Part shown: in pieces, positions 37,074-60,600 of the stretch
How the letters are laid out: every line of letters starts with the position of its first letter
Numbering within the stretch: position 1 is the first letter of the stretch
NCBI RefSeq assembly: GCF_003576315.1
Contig: NZ_QWFZ01000017.1
Span: 62,001 to 126,000, forward strand
DNA length: 64,000 nucleotides
DNA from: Henriciella mobilis
GTDB taxonomy: Bacteria; Pseudomonadota; Alphaproteobacteria; Caulobacterales; Hyphomonadaceae
Direction: 5' to 3'
Program-made: the position numbers and the translations under genes
The notes under the pieces: model-generated
What the model was told of the DNA's origin: nothing
Seen by the model: the letters and a program-made list of their open reading frames with translations, nothing else
The model's database searches: none

Positions 37074-37149
37074 CGTTGTTCTGGCGTCTTGACGGGCAGA
37101 TCGAAGCAGGAGACAAGAGGTTTGTTACAAGTGTAGCGAATCAGCGAGA

Positions 37150-38580
37150 GTGTCCATCCTGATCACGATTTTCGGATTTGTCCGTCGGGCCGCCGTGGCG
37201 CTGTCATTCGTAGCAGCAGGCGTTCAGGGGCAAGTCGTTGCGCAAACCAGAGAGAACCTTCTCGCGCCTTATCTGGTCGCACCGGGCGACGACTTCCTGA
37301 TCAATGGCGTGATGATCCCCGGTTTTGAGGACGATACTGGCCGCGTCCCCCGGGACATTCTGTTCCTGAACGGTCGGATAGCCGGACTGGGCGCTGCCGG
37401 AACGCTCGCGGCACCCGACCACGTCTTGCGCATAGACGGGCGCGGCAAGTCGCTGCTGCCCGGCCTTGTCGGCATGCATAATCATCTGCATATGCCCGGC
37501 GCGCCATCCATGGGCGATGTTGCGGCCCGCCTCTACCTTGCCTCGGGCGTGACGACGATCCAGACGGCCGGCAGCGCTGATCCGATTGGGGAGTTGAGGC
37601 TTGCCCGGGAGATTGAGCGGGGAACTGTCCCCGGCCCCCGAATCCTGGCCTCAGCGCCGTACATCACCGGGCCAGGCGGCAATGCGCCGATGGACAAGCC
37701 CGCCGATGCGGAGGCCGCGCGCCGCTTCGTGGACGAATGGGCTGATCGCGGGGTCAGCACAATCAAGCTCTACCGGCATACCGACTCCGACATCGCAGCC
37801 ATCATCATCGACCAGGCGCACAAGCGCGGTCTGCGTGTGACGGGCCATCTCTGTTCGATCACCTATGCAGAGGCTGCCGAAATGGGCATCGATGGCCTGG
37901 AGCACGGCTTGCACCCGGCGAGCGACATGGTGCCGGACAAACCCCGTGGCGTCTGTGTGCCCAGTCTCGACGCAAAGGCAGCGATGGACATTGACGATCC
38001 GCAGATCCGCTCCCTGATCGAGACGCTGGTCAGCAAGGGTGTCGAATTGACGTCGACACTGGCCATCCTGGAGTCGCGTTTTCCGCATCGTCCGCAGGCA
38101 GATGAGCGCGCACTAAAGCTGCTTGCGCCACAACTGGCCGACGCCGCCCGCGCGCGGACGAAGGCGATGAATGAGAGCGCAGCAACGCCATCGACTGACC
38201 CGGCCTATTGGAGCCTCCTGACGGCGTTCGAGCGCCGCTTTGTGGAGGCGGGCGGGCGGCTGCTGGCGGGGCCGGATACCGGGCGCCACGTCTTGCCGGG
38301 CCTTGGCGATCAGCGAAACTTCGAGCTCCTGCGGGAAGCAGGATTCTCGACCTCGCAGACGATTGCCATCATGTCGCTCAATGGTGCGCGGGCGCTGGGC
38401 CTCGATGATGAGATCGGGCGGATCGAGCCGGGCTATCGGGCTGACCTGGTCCTGGTCGTTGGAGACATTGAGGCGGACCCGGCGGCCATTCGCAACATCG
38501 AAATCGTGTTCAAGGCCGGACGCGCATACGATCCGAAGCGGCTGACAGACGGGCTCGAGGGCCGGGTCGGCCTGCCATAG
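37150..38580 (+). CDS. secreted amidohydrolase family protein
   Basis: A 476-residue metal-dependent hydrolase. A hydrophobic N-terminus (about 5-30) suggests export. The first metal motif is GMHNHLHMP (HxH), a Lys appears in STIKLYRH, His ligands in VTGHLCS and GLEHGLH, and the catalytic Asp in GPDTGRH. The C-terminal composite beta domain (GRIEPGYRADLVLV) is typical of imidazolonepropionase/prolidase-like amidohydrolases. The substrate is unknown. GTG at 37150 has a GCGAGAG ribosome binding site. Confidence 0.85.
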   Translation: MSILITIFGFVRRAAVALSFVAAGVQGQVVAQTRENLLAPYLVAPGDDFLINGVMIPGFEDDTGRVPRDILFLNGRIAGLGAAGTLAAPDHVLRIDGRGKSLLPGLVGMHNHLHMPGAPSMGDVAARLYLASGVTTIQTAGSADPIGELRLAREIERGTVPGPRILASAPYITGPGGNAPMDKPADAEAARRFVDEWADRGVSTIKLYRHTDSDIAAIIIDQAHKRGLRVTGHLCSITYAEAAEMGIDGLEHGLHPASDMVPDKPRGVCVPSLDAKAAMDIDDPQIRSLIETLVSKGVELTSTLAILESRFPHRPQADERALKLLAPQLADAARARTKAMNESAATPSTDPAYWSLLTAFERRFVEAGGRLLAGPDTGRHVLPGLGDQRNFELLREAGFSTSQTIAIMSLNGARALGLDDEIGRIEPGYRADLVLVVGDIEADPAAIRNIEIVFKAGRAYDPKRLTDGLEGRVGLP

Positions 38581-38636
38581 GTCGCAGGAATGAACCGGGG
38601 CTGGAGCTCGGTGAGCGATCTGCCTATGGATGTCCT

Positions 38637-39080
38637 ATGGCAGGCAACCCTGACACCCTCACCCGGCCATCGGCACTCGCCATGATCGGTGATCCTGCGC
38701 CGGAAGAGGCCGGTCGGTGGGAGGTGCACCTGGCATACCGGCTGGTCTCGTCGAACTCCGTCGTCGACCTCCGGGCCATCGCGGATTTCGTCCAGATCGA
38801 CAGTGCTTTCAGCGGACAGACCACCGTGGATTTCCAGATCGGGGATGTCACAAAATACAGCGTCGAGGCCGATGTCGAGGGTGAGCTGACCGGCAATCTC
38901 GTCCTGCTCGACCTGCATATGCATGAGGGCACGCTCAGCGTTTCCCCCTTTTTCTGTACCGGCGAAGCGAAGACCGAGGGCGAGCGCTATGAGGGCAAAT
39001 GGCATATGCCCTGCCTCAAGCCGGATACGTGCGGCTGTGAGGGTGACGACGGCTACTTCTCGCTGACCCGCGTCGGATAG
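38637..39080 (+). CDS. hypothetical protein with a C-terminal Cys cluster
   Basis: A 147-residue soluble, strand-rich protein that I do not recognise. The last 30 residues contain HMPCLKPDTCGCEGDDGYFS, a C-x5-C-x-C cluster that could bind a metal, and another Cys lies 24 residues before. A second ATG at 38682 could be the true start. It sits between the amidohydrolase and the S10 peptidase in the same direction. GC and codon use look like the neighbours, so it is likely real. Confidence 0.6.
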   Translation: MAGNPDTLTRPSALAMIGDPAPEEAGRWEVHLAYRLVSSNSVVDLRAIADFVQIDSAFSGQTTVDFQIGDVTKYSVEADVEGELTGNLVLLDLHMHEGTLSVSPFFCTGEAKTEGERYEGKWHMPCLKPDTCGCEGDDGYFSLTRVG

Positions 39081-39147
39081 CGCCCTTGCCCGCCTGCTGA
39101 TTAGCGTGTGAATGGAGCCATCCGAATTTGAGTTGAGGGGATCGATC

Positions 39148-40674
39148 ATGCGCAGATTTCTGGTGGCCTGCCTGGTGGCGACGTCGGCGGCGGGTCTTGC
39201 CTGGGCCGATGAGGCTGGAGCAGACAAGGCCGAAGCGGCGGCAGAGCCCATCCCCGAACCGGTGATGTTCGAGACGGCCCATCGCGGCACGTTCAACGGC
39301 ACGCGGGTCAACTACACGGTCGAGGCCGGCGAAACCTATATCGACAATGAAGATGGCGAGCCGGCCGCAAGCCTCTTCACCATCTCCTATGTGAAAGAGG
39401 GTGCGGGCCCGCAGCGGCCTGTGGCCTTCGTGTTCAATGGCGGGCCGGGCTCGGCCTCGGTCTTGCTGCATCTTGGACTGCTCGGGCCAAAGCGCGCCGT
39501 CGTTGCGAGCAATGCCGACGCCGATGATGGCGCAGCGCCCTATCGCATGGTCGACAATCCAGAAAGCCTGCTCGATGTCTCCGACCTTGTCTTCATCGAC
39601 CCGGTCGGCACCGGCTTCAGCCGGGCCATCGGTGAGGGTGAAGGCAAGGATTACTGGAACGAGGATGGCGACAAGGGCTCGATTGCCGAGTTCATCCGCC
39701 TCTGGCTGAACAAGCACAAGCGCTGGAATGCGCCGAAATACATCATTGGGGAAAGCTTCGGCACGACGCGCGCGGCCTATCTGGCCGAAGAATTGTCGAC
39801 CGGGGATGTCGATATCGCCCTCAATGGCCTGCTGCTGATCTCGCAGGCGCTGGACTATCAGGGCTCGACCTCGGTCCACGACAATGTCTATTCCTACATC
39901 ACCTACCTGCCGAGCATGGCGGCGGCCGCGCAGTATCACGGCAAGGCCGGGCAGGGCGTGCCTCAGGACCAGTTCCTGGCCGAAGCCCGCACGTTCGCGC
40001 GTGACGACTATGGCCCGGCCCTGCTGAAAGGTGCGCGGCTGACGGAGACCGAGCATGCGCGCATCCGCGACCGGCTTGCCTACTTCACCGGCCTTGATCC
40101 GGCCTATATCGAGACCTCCGACCTGCGCATCCTGATGCCGCGCTTCCAGAAAGAGCTGCTGCGCGATGAGGGCCTCGCCATCGGGCGCCTCGACGGTCGC
40201 TATGCAGGCGATGAAGCCGATGACGCCGCCGAAACCCCGTCCGGCGACGCGGCGAGCTATTTCGTGTCCTCGGCCTATTCGGCGCTGATGAACCAGTACC
40301 TTCTCGGTGATCTCAAGGTTGAGATGGACCGGCCCTATATCGCCTCCAGCGGTGAGGTCGGCAGCGGCTGGAAATACGGCCCGGAGGATGGCGCCTGGGA
40401 ACCGCACTATGTGAATTCCGCCCGGCAGCTGACCACGGCCATGCGCCGTAACACGGCGATGCAGGTCTGGGTGGCGAATGGCTATTACGACATGATCACG
40501 CCCTTCTTCGATGCCGAGATGACCTTTGCGCGCTATGGTATTCCGCAGGACCGGGTGACGATGAGCTACTATCCGGCCGGCCACATGATGTACCTGCACG
40601 AGCCGTCTCTCGAAGCGATCAGCGAAGACATGCGCGCCTTCCTGCGCGGCGAGCTGGAGGATGCACGCCCCTGA
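39148..40674 (+). CDS. S10 family serine carboxypeptidase-like protein
   Basis: A 508-residue secreted alpha/beta hydrolase. The signal peptide ends near GLAWADE. The oxyanion segment NGGPGSASVLLHLG, the catalytic Ser in GESFGTTRAAYLAE, the Asp in VANGYYDMITP and the His in YPAGHMMYL are all present. S10 enzymes remove C-terminal residues at acidic pH; bacterial members of this long subgroup are periplasmic and poorly studied. GAGGGG before the ATG at 39148 fixes the start. Confidence 0.9.
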   Translation: MRRFLVACLVATSAAGLAWADEAGADKAEAAAEPIPEPVMFETAHRGTFNGTRVNYTVEAGETYIDNEDGEPAASLFTISYVKEGAGPQRPVAFVFNGGPGSASVLLHLGLLGPKRAVVASNADADDGAAPYRMVDNPESLLDVSDLVFIDPVGTGFSRAIGEGEGKDYWNEDGDKGSIAEFIRLWLNKHKRWNAPKYIIGESFGTTRAAYLAEELSTGDVDIALNGLLLISQALDYQGSTSVHDNVYSYITYLPSMAAAAQYHGKAGQGVPQDQFLAEARTFARDDYGPALLKGARLTETEHARIRDRLAYFTGLDPAYIETSDLRILMPRFQKELLRDEGLAIGRLDGRYAGDEADDAAETPSGDAASYFVSSAYSALMNQYLLGDLKVEMDRPYIASSGEVGSGWKYGPEDGAWEPHYVNSARQLTTAMRRNTAMQVWVANGYYDMITPFFDAEMTFARYGIPQDRVTMSYYPAGHMMYLHEPSLEAISEDMRAFLRGELEDARP

Positions 40675-55944: not shown

Positions 55945-56092
55945 GGAACACTCCTCCGGCTGGTCTTGCGGCGAGCGGCATAGCGCATTTTGCGCAGCAG
56001 GACAGGGTGTTTTGTGTGTAGAAACTGGTATTCAGGGCTGAAGACAGGCGCAAAGCTTGCATCAGGTGTGGGTAAAACCCGGAGGACTATCG

Positions 56093-57109
56093 ATGGCTTA
56101 TGACGTGATGATCGCGTCTGCCATGGCGGACAAGGCGAAAGCTGAACTGGTCGCAAAGCGCTTGCGGTCGCTGAAATTCAGGGTCCGCTACGACGCCAAG
56201 CGTGAGCACACCACGCCGACCACGCGCGACCTGAACGATGCGAACAGGTCCGGCGCCGTGCTGGTGCTGTGGTCGAAGGCGGCGTGTGACACGAGCACAG
56301 GCGACAGCGACTGGGTGCATTCGATTGCGCACCTTGCGCGCTCGCGCAGGAACGCCCTGTTCCAGGCCGATCTCGACGCGACGACTCCAGACGAGCCATT
56401 CGACAAGGATGAGCGGTTCAAGCTGACAGGCATGGGCCCGAAGCGAATCCCGAACGGGCTGTTCGACCTGGCCGACGCGCTGGGCAAGAAGCAGCGCCGC
56501 AAGGACCTGTCGGACTTTCTGAAGATCGCCGCGGGCGACACCGAAGCCAAGGATGCGTGGAAGAAGGCGCATCCGCGCGACCCGATTTCGCTTGCAGGCA
56601 AGGCTGCTGCGGCGAAGAAGAAAGCGGCGACCAAGAAGCCGGCTGCGAAGAAGACCACGGCCAGCAAGACTGCGACCAAAGCGGCGGGTGCCAGCACACC
56701 GGCAGCGTCCGACGCGGCGCCAGCCAAGGATACGGCCGCGCCGGAAACGCCGAATACCGACAACCTCGTTCCGAAGATCAAGCTGAACCCGCCTGTCTCG
56801 CCGTCCGCGATGCCGTATCGGCGCCCGGCCGAACCGTCGCTGCGCGATGAAGACCGTCAGGAGATCGGCTGGGTCATGCTTGGCCCGATCATCGCCGGCA
56901 TCGTCCTGATGATGCTGCTGGCCTACGCTTTCCGCTCGACAACGACGGCGAGTGCGCCGGCGGCCGGCATGCCGGCGATCGCCAATGCGCGGCCTGTCGT
57001 GATGGATGTCTGTCCGCCCGGCCAGGTGCCGCGCTCACTCATTGAGATTCCGCCGCTGCGCACTGGGCCGATCATCGACGATACCGAAGAGGCAGAACCG
57101 GCCGAATAG
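56093..57109 (+). CDS. TIR-like domain protein with Lys/Ala-rich stalk and membrane helix
   Basis: A 338-residue protein. Residues 1-140 have a TIR-like alpha/beta pattern: YDVMIASAMADKAKAELVAK (strand A, helix A), LKFRVRYDA (strand B), SGAVLVLWSKAAC (strand C) and SDWVHSIAHLARS (helix C). The catalytic Glu of NADase TIRs is expected at the fifth position from W74 but is I78. Residues about 168-235 are histone-H1-like (AAAKKKAATKKPAAKK), then a Pro-rich part, one membrane helix at about 262-283, and a 55-residue tail. CGGAGGA supports the ATG at 56093. It lies on the plus strand between pth and ychF on the minus strand. Call by fold pattern; function unknown. Confidence 0.72.
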   Translation: MAYDVMIASAMADKAKAELVAKRLRSLKFRVRYDAKREHTTPTTRDLNDANRSGAVLVLWSKAACDTSTGDSDWVHSIAHLARSRRNALFQADLDATTPDEPFDKDERFKLTGMGPKRIPNGLFDLADALGKKQRRKDLSDFLKIAAGDTEAKDAWKKAHPRDPISLAGKAAAAKKKAATKKPAAKKTTASKTATKAAGASTPAASDAAPAKDTAAPETPNTDNLVPKIKLNPPVSPSAMPYRRPAEPSLRDEDRQEIGWVMLGPIIAGIVLMMLLAYAFRSTTTASAPAAGMPAIANARPVVMDVCPPGQVPRSLIEIPPLRTGPIIDDTEEAEPAE

Positions 57110-58489: not shown

Positions 58490-58641
58490 GTTCTTTCCTT
58501 TCGCCCTGAAGTCCGCCTGCGGAACCTTCCGCCGGTGACAGCCTGACAGGAACGGCCTTGCGCCGCCCTTTCTGAAGCGTGGGCCATTACACGAAGCAGC
58601 CGGACCTGACAACCGGCCCACTGAATCGGGCTTGACGCAAT

Positions 58642-58688
58642 ACGTTACAGCTGTCACACATAAATCAGTAAAGTGACAGCTGTAACGT
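58642..58688. promoter_or_regulatory. double BlaI-type operator
   Basis: ACGTTACAGCTGTCAC (58642-58657) and GTGACAGCTGTAACGT (58673-58688) are exact complements 15 bases apart. Each arm contains its own dyad around ACAGCTGT, close to the TTACAnnTGTAA boxes bound by BlaI/MecI dimers, so two repressor dimers could bind side by side. A TTGACG -35-like hexamer precedes it at 58632. It lies between rplY (minus strand) and the BlaI gene. Confidence 0.75.
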
Positions 58689-58705: not shown

Positions 58706-59107
58706 ATGTCCAAACCAAACTCATCAGAACTCGTCATCCTGAAATATCTGTGGTCGGCAGGACGGCGCACGGCACGTGAGATCCACGATGCCGTCGGTCC
58801 GGCGCGCGACTGGCAGCTCTCGACGACGCGTACCGTTATCAATCGCATGGAAACCAAAGGCTGGGTGAAGCGCGACGGCGAGTCGCCGGAAGCGGCTGCC
58901 TTTTATGTTGCCGTGTTGGACCGGGTCGAAACGCTGGGCGGTCTGGTCCGCCAGCTTGCCCGCCAGGTGCTGGACCTGAAAGGACCGGTGCCCGCTGCGC
59001 TGTTCGCCGATAGCCCGCACCTGTCGGAAGAGGAACTCGACGAACTCGACGCGATCATCAACGCCGCCGAAGACAAGGAAAACGCCAAAGGGGACGAGAA
59101 AAAATGA
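58706..59107 (+). CDS. BlaI/MecI/CopY family repressor
   Basis: A 133-residue winged-helix repressor. LVILKYLWSAGRRTAREIHD and WQLSTTRTVINRMETKGWVK form the DNA-binding domain; the C-terminal helices (LVRQLARQVLDL, DELDAIINAAED) dimerise. In characterised systems the partner membrane peptidase leads to BlaI cleavage after signal sensing. The partner gene overlaps by four bases. The ATG at 58706 (GGAAGGG upstream) is chosen because the earlier in-frame GTG lies in the operator. Confidence 0.93.
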   Translation: MSKPNSSELVILKYLWSAGRRTAREIHDAVGPARDWQLSTTRTVINRMETKGWVKRDGESPEAAAFYVAVLDRVETLGGLVRQLARQVLDLKGPVPAALFADSPHLSEEELDELDAIINAAEDKENAKGDEKK

Positions 59108-60540
59108 GCATCGCCTGGCTGGTTATCTTCATTATCCTCTGGACCGGCTTCCTGGCCGGTATCGCCAGCCTGGTGACATCCGGGCGCGTGCAGGCGCGGT
59201 TTGCCCAGCTGGTCTGGCGCGGCGCGGCCCTGCTGTCGGTTGCGCCGCTGGCTGTGATCGGATTGTCGAAGCTGATACCCGCCAGGCTGCCGGCAGCCTT
59301 GCCGGACATTCCCTATGTCGAACCGGCCGCTGGTCTGATGACCAGCGCCACCACAAGCCTGAAGACCGCCGTGTCAGGCCCTGAATGGTCCTGGACCGTG
59401 CCAGCCCTGATGATCGTGCTGGCGGCAGGCTGGACGGTACGGTTCGGCGCAGCCCTCCTCGCGCAGGCCCACCTGCAGCGGCTGAAATCCCGCTCGACGC
59501 CCAAACGGCACCTTATCGACGCCTTGCCCCTGACAGAGCTGGGCCTTGAGCGGGTCCCCGCTATCCGCAGCATCCCCGGCGGCTCGCCCTTCATCGCGGG
59601 CTTTCTGCGGCGGGAAATCTACGTTCCGGAAGCGCTCACCGAGCCGCGGGACCTGCGCCAGATCGCGATCCATGAATGTGTTCACCTCAAGCGCGGTGAC
59701 CTTATCACCCGGCCGCTCGAGCGGATCGTGGCGGATGTGTTCTGGTTCTCACCATTTTCCTGGATGATGCGCCGCCAGCTGGATTTCTGGCGCGAGGCTG
59801 TCTGCGACGAGATTGCATCAGACCTCAGCGGTGACCGCATCGGCTATGCCCGGACGCTGGCTCAGGCCGCACGGATTGCCGCGCCCCTGCGTGCCCTGCC
59901 AGTGGCCGCCTTTATCCTGCCGCGCCGCAAGAGTCTTCCCCGGCGCCTCAGCCGCCTGCTGGAGCCAAGCCCCGCGCAGTCGCGTCCGATCATGGCGCTC
60001 GGCGCCAGCCTGGTCGCGCTGGCGCTCTCGCCGCTCGCTCTCGCCCAGGCCGGCGGGGATGACGTCATCGCATCGTCTGAAAAGGGCAAGAAAGCCTCGT
60101 TCGACTTCGCTGTCCTGCTCAGCCCGGAGGCGCGCGTCACCTCAGACTTTGGCGAGCGCAAGGATCCGATCAAGAAGAAGATTGCCTTCCACAATGGCAC
60201 CGATATCGGCGCGCCGCTGGGTACCCCGGTCCACGCGCCGGCCTGCGGCAAGGTCATTTTCTCCGGCTACAAGGATGGCTATGGCGAAACCATCGAGGTC
60301 GCTTATGGCGATGGCAGCAAGATGCGGTTTGCGCAGCTGTCCGAACGTTTCGTGCATCATGGCGAAGAGGTGACGGCCGGATCGGTCATCGGTCATGTCG
60401 GCATGTCTGGCCGCGCGACGGGGCCGCACCTGCATCTCGAGCATTGGGAACCGACGCTCGACCCTGAGACAGGCGATGTGAAGATGAGCCCGGTCGACCC
60501 GCGAAAGACCGCTGGCCTCGTGCTCTATACGAACGGTTAG
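59104..60540 (+). CDS. BlaR1-like M56 membrane peptidase fused to an M23 domain
   Basis: A 478-residue protein. Membrane helices lie at about 3-24, 38-60 and 97-116, and one near 299-317 (MALGASLVALALSPLALA). The M56 zinc motif is H190-E191-x-x-H194 in IHECVHLKRGD, with the downstream EAVCDE as third ligand region, on the cytosolic side. The C-terminal ~145 residues, outside the membrane, are an M23/LytM-type domain: H363 and D367 in HNGTDIG, and H442/H444 in GPHLHLEHW. The residue matching the second catalytic His of LytM (the AHL motif) is Q411 in FAQLSE. So the zinc site is complete but hydrolysis may be weak or absent. BlaR1 proteins normally carry a penicillin-binding domain here. It is coupled to the BlaI gene. 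Confidence 0.9.
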   Translation: MSIAWLVIFIILWTGFLAGIASLVTSGRVQARFAQLVWRGAALLSVAPLAVIGLSKLIPARLPAALPDIPYVEPAAGLMTSATTSLKTAVSGPEWSWTVPALMIVLAAGWTVRFGAALLAQAHLQRLKSRSTPKRHLIDALPLTELGLERVPAIRSIPGGSPFIAGFLRREIYVPEALTEPRDLRQIAIHECVHLKRGDLITRPLERIVADVFWFSPFSWMMRRQLDFWREAVCDEIASDLSGDRIGYARTLAQAARIAAPLRALPVAAFILPRRKSLPRRLSRLLEPSPAQSRPIMALGASLVALALSPLALAQAGGDDVIASSEKGKKASFDFAVLLSPEARVTSDFGERKDPIKKKIAFHNGTDIGAPLGTPVHAPACGKVIFSGYKDGYGETIEVAYGDGSKMRFAQLSERFVHHGEEVTAGSVIGHVGMSGRATGPHLHLEHWEPTLDPETGDVKMSPVDPRKTAGLVLYTNG

Positions 60541-60558: not shown

Positions 60559-60600
60559 GAAAGGCTCTCTTGCCCCGATGGCAAGAGAGCCTTTCCTTTT
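60559..60600. terminator. strong bidirectional terminator
   Basis: GAAAGGCTCTCTTGC (60559-60573) pairs perfectly with GCAAGAGAGCCTTTC (60581-60595) around a seven-base loop, with CTTTT after it. It separates the convergent M56-M23 and aldehyde dehydrogenase genes. Confidence 0.9.

Follow-up and report, generated by a model that had tools for sequence, protein, structure and literature searches.

A BlaI-type repressor and an M56-M23 fusion protein in Henriciella mobilis: a putative cell-wall receptor with predicted envelope-gene targets

The genome of Henriciella mobilis harbors a gene coding for a BlaI/MecI-type winged-helix repressor (58706..59107, plus strand, 133 aa) that shares 4 nt (an ATGA overlap) with a second gene of the same strand (59104..60540, plus strand, 478 aa), whose product joins an M56 protease to an M23/LytM domain and may serve as a receptor. 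Positions refer to the window, i.e. the whole 64-kb stretch of DNA that was analysed. We lean towards the view that this pair is a one-way switch of the BlaR1/BlaI type, in which the M23 domain is the periplasmic receptor and BlaI acts on its own promoter and on envelope genes. This view is built on computed features, namely the domains and fold of the fusion protein, the conservation of its residues, an operator motif and the phylogenetic footprint of that motif.

According to the proposed mechanism, the M23 domain would hold zinc without possessing the full catalytic set and would act as a periplasmic receptor, most likely for stem peptides or cross-links of the peptidoglycan. The ligand would be bound without turnover; TM4 would relay its binding or loss to the M56 protease on the cytosolic side, and this protease would inactivate the co-encoded BlaI. 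The repressor would otherwise occupy the paired palindromes at its own promoter and sites before envelope genes, chiefly that of a TonB-dependent receptor, and its inactivation would free this receptor, the envelope genes and its own operon together. A more specific version, which we offer only tentatively, is a cell-wall surveillance receptor made of a crippled endopeptidase fused to a BlaR1 protease. As a mirror of BlaR1, it would control through BlaI proteolysis, depending on the status of cross-links or stem peptides, the TonB-dependent receptor (for the uptake of cell-wall fragments or for the growth of the wall) as well as psp-linked and periplasmic repair genes. Cell-wall fragments have already been placed in the BlaI pathway, since the accessible part of PMC3305447 describes a peptidoglycan dipeptide that binds BlaI/MecI and destabilises the repressor-DNA complex.

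Domains, fold and position 411 of the fusion protein

The overlapping BlaI and M56/M23 genes reported in the preliminary description were confirmed by the reading frames and by Pfam. The repressor matches PF03965 (Penicillinase_R) with 68.7 bits against a cut-off of 22.6 (E 6.8e-19), and both domains of its partner, for which a Pfam search had been recommended, lie above their cut-offs: Peptidase_M56 at aa 28-283 (3.5e-20; PF05569, 72.8 bits for a cut-off of 31) and Peptidase_M23 at aa 362-449 (3.1e-25). The nearest NCBIfam model of the repressor is CopY_TcrY, below its cut-off. A copper repressor of the CopY/CopR type was rejected because the 133-aa protein has no cysteine, hence no C-terminal CXC metal motif. 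The CopY/CopR operator RNYKACANNTGTMRNY, as given in the available text of PMC7253601, does fit the motif of the window, but these repressors differ from the present one by their CXC motif and by the protease partner found here.

The M56 part contains the zinc-protease motif HECVH (59671..59685, plus strand; aa 190-194) and a downstream glutamate, and residues H190, E191, H194, E231 and D235 are invariant in 35/35 fusion proteins. The predicted periplasmic M23/LytM domain covers aa 333-475 (60100..60528, plus strand), and its H363, D367, H442 and H444, which include the zinc ligands, are likewise invariant in 35/35. The 50 best Foldseek rows are mostly M23 or LytM proteins, with no BlaR1 among these 50 matches listed. 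BlaR1 appears at ranks 43-49 of the VIA-align comparison, whose rows cover mostly the M23 half of the fusion, consistent with a BlaR1-like transmembrane and protease fold. The top structural matches include the LytM domains of DipM and EnvC. No penicillin-binding (class D-like) domain was found at the C-terminus, which is occupied by the M23 domain, and a beta-lactam sensor was rejected for that reason. The presence of an M23 domain where BlaR1 has its penicillin sensor, as initially described, was thus borne out by both Pfam and fold matches. The two observations that were to count against it were an absent M23 fold and a C-terminal domain on the cytosolic side; the fold obtained is of the M23/LytM type, and the domain is predicted to be periplasmic.

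In the consensus of the family alignment, TM4 ends with a conserved LALAQ-like stretch that resembles a signal-peptidase site; a cut after TM4, if real, would prevent the M23 domain from signalling to M56. Some homologues of the fusion are longer than the usual 440-490 aa by about 250-390 aa (829 aa in G033, 791 aa in G052, 783 aa in G040 and 740 aa in G044), and the extra part of the G033 protein is located C-terminally of the M23 domain.

The M23 domain departs from active enzymes at position 411, where the codon CAG (60334..60336, plus strand) specifies a glutamine in place of the catalytic histidine (LytM His260, Pgp3 His216). The complete catalytic set, with a histidine about 30 residues before the HxH motif, is therefore absent from this protein. 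The spacing of 31 between Gln411 and His442 equals that between His216 and His247 of Pgp3, which are strictly conserved core catalytic residues in M23 according to the part of PMC6978369 at hand. In the available text of PMC9662197, the catalytic histidine (LytM His260) is positioned next to the attacking water, and the first histidine of HxH is the proposed activator of this water; the latter residue is kept in all 35 fusions. These 35 proteins comprise that of the window, 22 from congeners, five from other genera of its family, six from family f5 and one from family f4, the copy of G026 being excluded because it is broken by a contig end.

Position 411 is occupied by Gln in 27 of them, by Ser in four and by His in four, giving 31/35 for Gln and Ser combined, and none of the 28 members of the window's family has His (28/28). 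The histidine is retained in 4/35, three from f5 (G040, G044 and G060) and one from f4 (G055), and also in Aliikangiella and a Flavobacteriaceae MAG, whose distantly related M56-M23 proteins are encoded beside a BlaI-like gene; an impaired site is therefore not a rule for the M56-M23 architecture. At least three changes between His and not-His were counted on a tree whose long branches make this number a guide only. For comparison, 79 of the 80 M23 stretches from the best 80 of 573 loci in named genomes have His, in a set partly found through the HxH pattern, so that HxH was selected for and position 411 was not; the exception, with Gln, is the fusion of a Hyphomonas MAG. The structure alignment took in 49 of the 80 loci, and the residue count was repeated on all 80. 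Moreover, the stand-alone M23 genes situated just 3' of the fusion in other congeners keep the histidine in 4/4 cases, which indicates that its loss is specific to the receptor. These genes (L046:6023-6568 and the same place in L047, L048 and L049) lie on the same strand, code for a signal-peptide-like start and retain all catalytic residues; the enzyme is a possible output or partner of the fusion.

As judged from the sequences, a domain that keeps its zinc ligands but has lost one catalytic histidine is more readily understood as a binding sensor than as a hydrolase. The main argument for a sensor is the parallel with BlaR1, whose own sensor resembles class D beta-lactamases with a much slower turnover (PMC7593790, in the part available). 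The fusion could instead be a working or slow membrane-tethered peptidoglycan endopeptidase for which sensing is incidental, and the four members that keep every catalytic residue, as well as the first HxH histidine kept throughout, would agree with this. We regard it as very unlikely, given that Gln or Ser replaces the other catalytic His in 28/28 members of the window's family and that the invariable blaI partner points to signalling. The M23 domain might also be a protein-docking module, as in EnvC and NlpD, and sense a partner from cell division or a hydrolase in place of peptidoglycan. The accessible part of PMC9662197 describes degenerate M23 folds as hubs, DipM and EnvC are among the top fold matches, and the main target gene lies beside ddl-ftsQAZ. 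EnvC and NlpD, however, are said there to have an incomplete catalytic set, to lack zinc, or both, whereas the metal site is invariant here in 35/35. The invariance of this whole site suggests that the M23 groove is in use, and we hold docking to be unlikely, though less so than a tethered endopeptidase.

Operators and predicted target genes

The promoter of blaI carries an operator region (58642..58688, plus strand) just 3' of a -35-like TTGACG (58632..58637, plus strand). It consists of two BlaI-type palindromes, GTTACAGCTGTCAC (58644-58657) and GTGACAGCTGTAAC (58673-58686), which together make up a perfect inverted repeat of 16 bp whose arms are 15 nt apart. We favour ATG 58706 as the start of blaI, since the GTG at 58673, which would give a longer protein, falls within the second palindrome and since the gene starts in many relatives at the ATG that corresponds to 58706. 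An operator at the family's own promoter was recovered as KACANNTGTM in 32/35 promoters and as the strict 10-mer TACANNTGTA in 25/35, the two sites of the window being of the looser type, and in 29/35 a TTGAC is found no more than 45 nt 5' of an operator-like site.

With zero mismatch, GYKACANNTGTMRC occurs five times in the genome of the window: twice before blaI, once before an amidohydrolase gene, once before a TonB-dependent receptor gene and once elsewhere. The pattern KYTACANNTGTARM gave 81 sites over the 24 fusion-bearing genomes of the genus and one over the five without fusion, a sharper contrast than that of its reversed control (118 and 13, respectively). When one mismatch was allowed in the own genome, the operator pattern matched 77 times and the reversed control 227 times. 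The pattern is not enriched over this control, so only position and contrast carry weight, and we relied on footprints at orthologues. A loose scan of the window with two mismatches gave four matches, a number reached by 8/100 shuffles, which proves nothing. A similar caution is called for with BlaI/MecI sites as with those of CopY, for which the 10-mer alone is insufficient for binding (PMC7253601, in its available text).

The clearest footprint is found at the TonB-dependent receptor gene, which adjoins ddl-ftsQ-ftsA-ftsZ in the window's genome (names as read from translations). Its GYKACANNTGTMRC site is located 45 nt before the presumed ATG; a longer reading of the ORF would include the site, but alignments of relatives favour the shorter start. 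The encoded protein has a Pfam plug domain (8e-06), and a sequence search against solved structures gave no match. At E 1e-60 the gene is present in 21 of the 29 genomes of the genus, i.e. in 20/24 with the fusion and 1/5 without (Fisher p 0.013, a value that ignores kinship). TACANNTGTA lies upstream of it in all 20 fusion-bearing congeners that have the gene (19 orthologues and the fragment of G026). It is absent upstream of both receptor paralogues examined (2/2) and at the fragmentary homologue of the fusion-free G023, and none of the 80 control windows contains it; these windows extend up to 200 bp 5' of pth, ychF, prs, the dehydrogenase gene and a gene downstream of prs, and not all of them are intergenic. 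The footprint is weaker outside the genus, where TACANNTGTA precedes the receptor homologue in two of five fusion-bearing family members (G035 and G036), while the strict 10-mer is found in none of the three receptor loci examined from the fusion-free G031 and G034. Among the f4 and f5 genomes, the 10-mer precedes a receptor homologue only in G056 and G060, with a sequence more like that of a second BlaI (see below).

In other genera, the near-operator variants TACATGCGTA (L286, the G033 receptor) and TACAACAGTA (L280, G032) were observed upstream of receptor homologues, perhaps as drifted or differently specific sites. One further match to the pattern lies inside the receptor gene in G000 and G021.

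The TonB-dependent receptor is the chief predicted target of the fusion-linked BlaI, which would act there as a repressor. That the outputs lie elsewhere, as anticipated in the preliminary description, accords with the predicted target sites at distant envelope genes. A class A beta-lactamase as output was rejected, none being clear in the genome when this class was searched.

TonB-dependent receptors are often used for metal uptake, and the M23 domain could accordingly be read as a periplasmic zinc sensor that reports zinc occupancy, with the TonB-dependent receptor importing zinc or a zinc complex. The zinc ligands are indeed all invariant while the catalytic His is lost, and the receptor is the most consistent target. 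The genes at the other recurrent sites (a psp cluster and those for an AhpC/TSA protein and for a hydrolase) are not obvious zinc genes, however, and the receptor matches no solved structure by sequence that could indicate its cargo. M23 enzymes, moreover, bind zinc tightly, which counts against a sensor of this metal. We consider such a zinc sensor improbable and retain peptidoglycan as the likelier ligand of the putative receptor.

Another, higher-scoring BlaI is encoded in 27 of the 29 genomes of the genus, and at least one site GACYACANNTGTARTC precedes its gene in 20/20 genomes read. In the genome of the window, this second BlaI is paired with a plain BlaR1-like M56 protein of 678 aa devoid of M23 (G000:C36:28026-29413, L069), the 678-aa protein showing a weak DUF4230 match below the cut-off. 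A half-site matrix, evaluated by leaving out one genome at a time and after one distant G001 match had been dropped, classed the training sites of the two repressors correctly in 34/34 and 38/38 cases. The same matrix assigns 19 of the 23 receptor sites, spread over 15 of the 19 genomes, to the fusion type. The exceptions (G004, G014, G018 and G020) form one clade whose receptor site is more like that of the second BlaI, and some handover between both repressors is likely on this account.

The receptor sites could therefore belong to the second BlaI, with the fusion pair regulating only itself. The better fit of the sites of 4/19 congeners to the second motif, seen likewise by eye in some other genera, speaks for this, but 19/23 sites fit the motif of the fusion. 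Furthermore, the second BlaI persists in four fusion-free genomes: G002, G005 and G027 have no receptor gene at E 1e-60, and G023 has it in fragments that lack the site. Control by the second BlaI alone hence appears improbable, and the receptor gene is kept as a candidate target of the fusion-linked repressor.

The only TACANNTGTA of the 64-kb window belongs to the operator-like site GTTACAAGTGTAGC (37124..37137, plus strand), 12 nt before the GTG start of an amidohydrolase gene (37150..38580, plus strand; Pfam Amidohydro_1 9e-24; best NCBIfam model Xaa-Pro dipeptidase, below cut-off), which is a candidate member of the regulon. This gene is rarer than that of the TonB-dependent receptor; the site is kept in both fusion-bearing genomes that have the gene (one being G025) and is absent in the fusion-free G005. 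In the window, the amidohydrolase gene, a small ORF and a gene for an S10-type serine carboxypeptidase follow each other behind this site (37150-40674).

A further 31 site regions were fetched, the sites of G022 and G025 being not all among the matches listed. Seventeen of the 31 fall in four gene groups, and the other 14, inside genes or before unrelated genes, may be due to chance. The largest group contains eight sites about 40 nt before a conserved 60-aa ORF (G001, G003, G008, G015, G016, G024, G026 and G028). In G028 and G003, the two loci that were read completely, this ORF comes after a pspC-like gene, and pspA belongs to the same cluster (Pfam in G028: PspC 9.2e-20, PspA_IM30 3.7e-38). 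Five sites precede an exported AhpC/TSA-type protein (G008, G011, G016, G024 and G028; Pfam run on that of G008). Another three are followed by the gene of an alpha/beta hydrolase whose start is lipoprotein-like (G015, G016 and G028; Pfam run on that of G016), and in G001 a site is situated 201 bp 5' of a gene whose product has a peptidoglycan-binding domain. From their sequences, these psp-linked, AhpC/TSA, hydrolase and peptidoglycan-binding candidates look like envelope genes, with sites in subclades. The 60-aa ORF (L222:2595-2774 and its equivalents) has the operator in 8/8 loci read, these loci having been chosen by the operator.

Relation to known systems

The pair differs from BlaR1/BlaI and MecR1/MecI of staphylococci and bacilli by an M23/LytM domain in the place of the penicillin-binding sensor, and by its targets, which are predicted to be a TonB-dependent receptor and envelope genes in a genome where no class A beta-lactamase is clearly recognisable. 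The pair probably functions in the manner of BlaR1 and is not a beta-lactam-sensing BlaR1, since the defining sensor domain is absent. Compared with the M23 endopeptidases ShyA, LytM and Pgp3 (MepM by sequence), one catalytic His is replaced by Gln and the domain is fused behind an M56 membrane protease. The degenerate LytM factors EnvC and NlpD have in common with the fusion an M23 fold with an incomplete catalytic set, but here the zinc ligands are kept, a single catalytic residue is lost and the partner domain is M56.

The combined architecture, which the preliminary description suspected to be already known, is indeed in print as a rare domain combination: M23 proteins with an M56 domain are noted in PMC9662197, where M23 proteins carrying any second catalytic domain, including M56, together make up less than 1% of hits. 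The proteins mentioned there have the same two domains, and the available text of that article gives no function, partner repressor, operator or catalytic-site analysis for them. A limited literature search found no description of the function, catalytic site or regulon of M56-M23 proteins. We take 'M23/M56 family metallopeptidase' to be the database name of this architecture.

The initial interpretation is therefore partly supported. Its frame stands, that is a BlaR1/BlaI-type pair with a predicted periplasmic M23 domain, outputs elsewhere and a known architecture, and the idea of a sensor has been strengthened by the recurrent loss of the catalytic His with zinc ligands kept and by the predicted envelope-gene regulon. 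If true, BlaR1-type signalling would be a general chassis that obtains its sensors from crippled cell-wall enzymes, and a Gram-negative system would read the state of the peptidoglycan directly and tie it to outer-membrane transport. The analysis also yields a short list of predicted target promoters. Hyphomonas neptunium, a species already studied by CRISPRi depletion and M23 biochemistry (PMC10945521, in its accessible part), is a possible test organism.

Distribution and genomic context

The fusion is present in 24 of the 29 genomes of the genus. A class-wide count over 385 genomes at E 1e-20 found it at full length, among the matches listed, only in the two sampled members of the window's family, but absence elsewhere in the class is weak evidence because at most three candidates per genome were scored and M23 paralogues crowd the matches listed. 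Against the contigs of named genomes, the single-protein query gave no match and the alignment query gave the best 80 of 573 loci. Three of these 80 (L139, L140 and L204) encode, according to a profile search, an M56-M23 protein with an adjoining BlaI-like gene. The best full-length match in a named genome is that of the Hyphomonas MAG (L139), about 40% identical.

The pair is situated in the last 6 kb of the window, between a diverging rplY-pth and a converging aldehyde dehydrogenase-prs. These neighbours are shared by many of the 23 congeneric loci, own locus included (rplY 23/23, pth 22/23, prs 23/23, dehydrogenase 12/23). The survey of homologue neighbours proposed at the outset was carried out, and blaI was found immediately 5' of the fusion gene in 35/35 loci, with a gap of -8 to +3 nt. 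Between the converging M56-M23 and aldehyde dehydrogenase genes lies a terminator-like perfect 16-bp inverted repeat followed by a T-rich stretch (60559..60595). Finally, the 350-aa product of a gene adjoining pth (56057-57109) begins with a TIR-like region (Pfam TIR_2, under the cut-off) and has a hydrophobic segment close to the C-terminus; proteins resembling it are encoded next to pth in several congeners.
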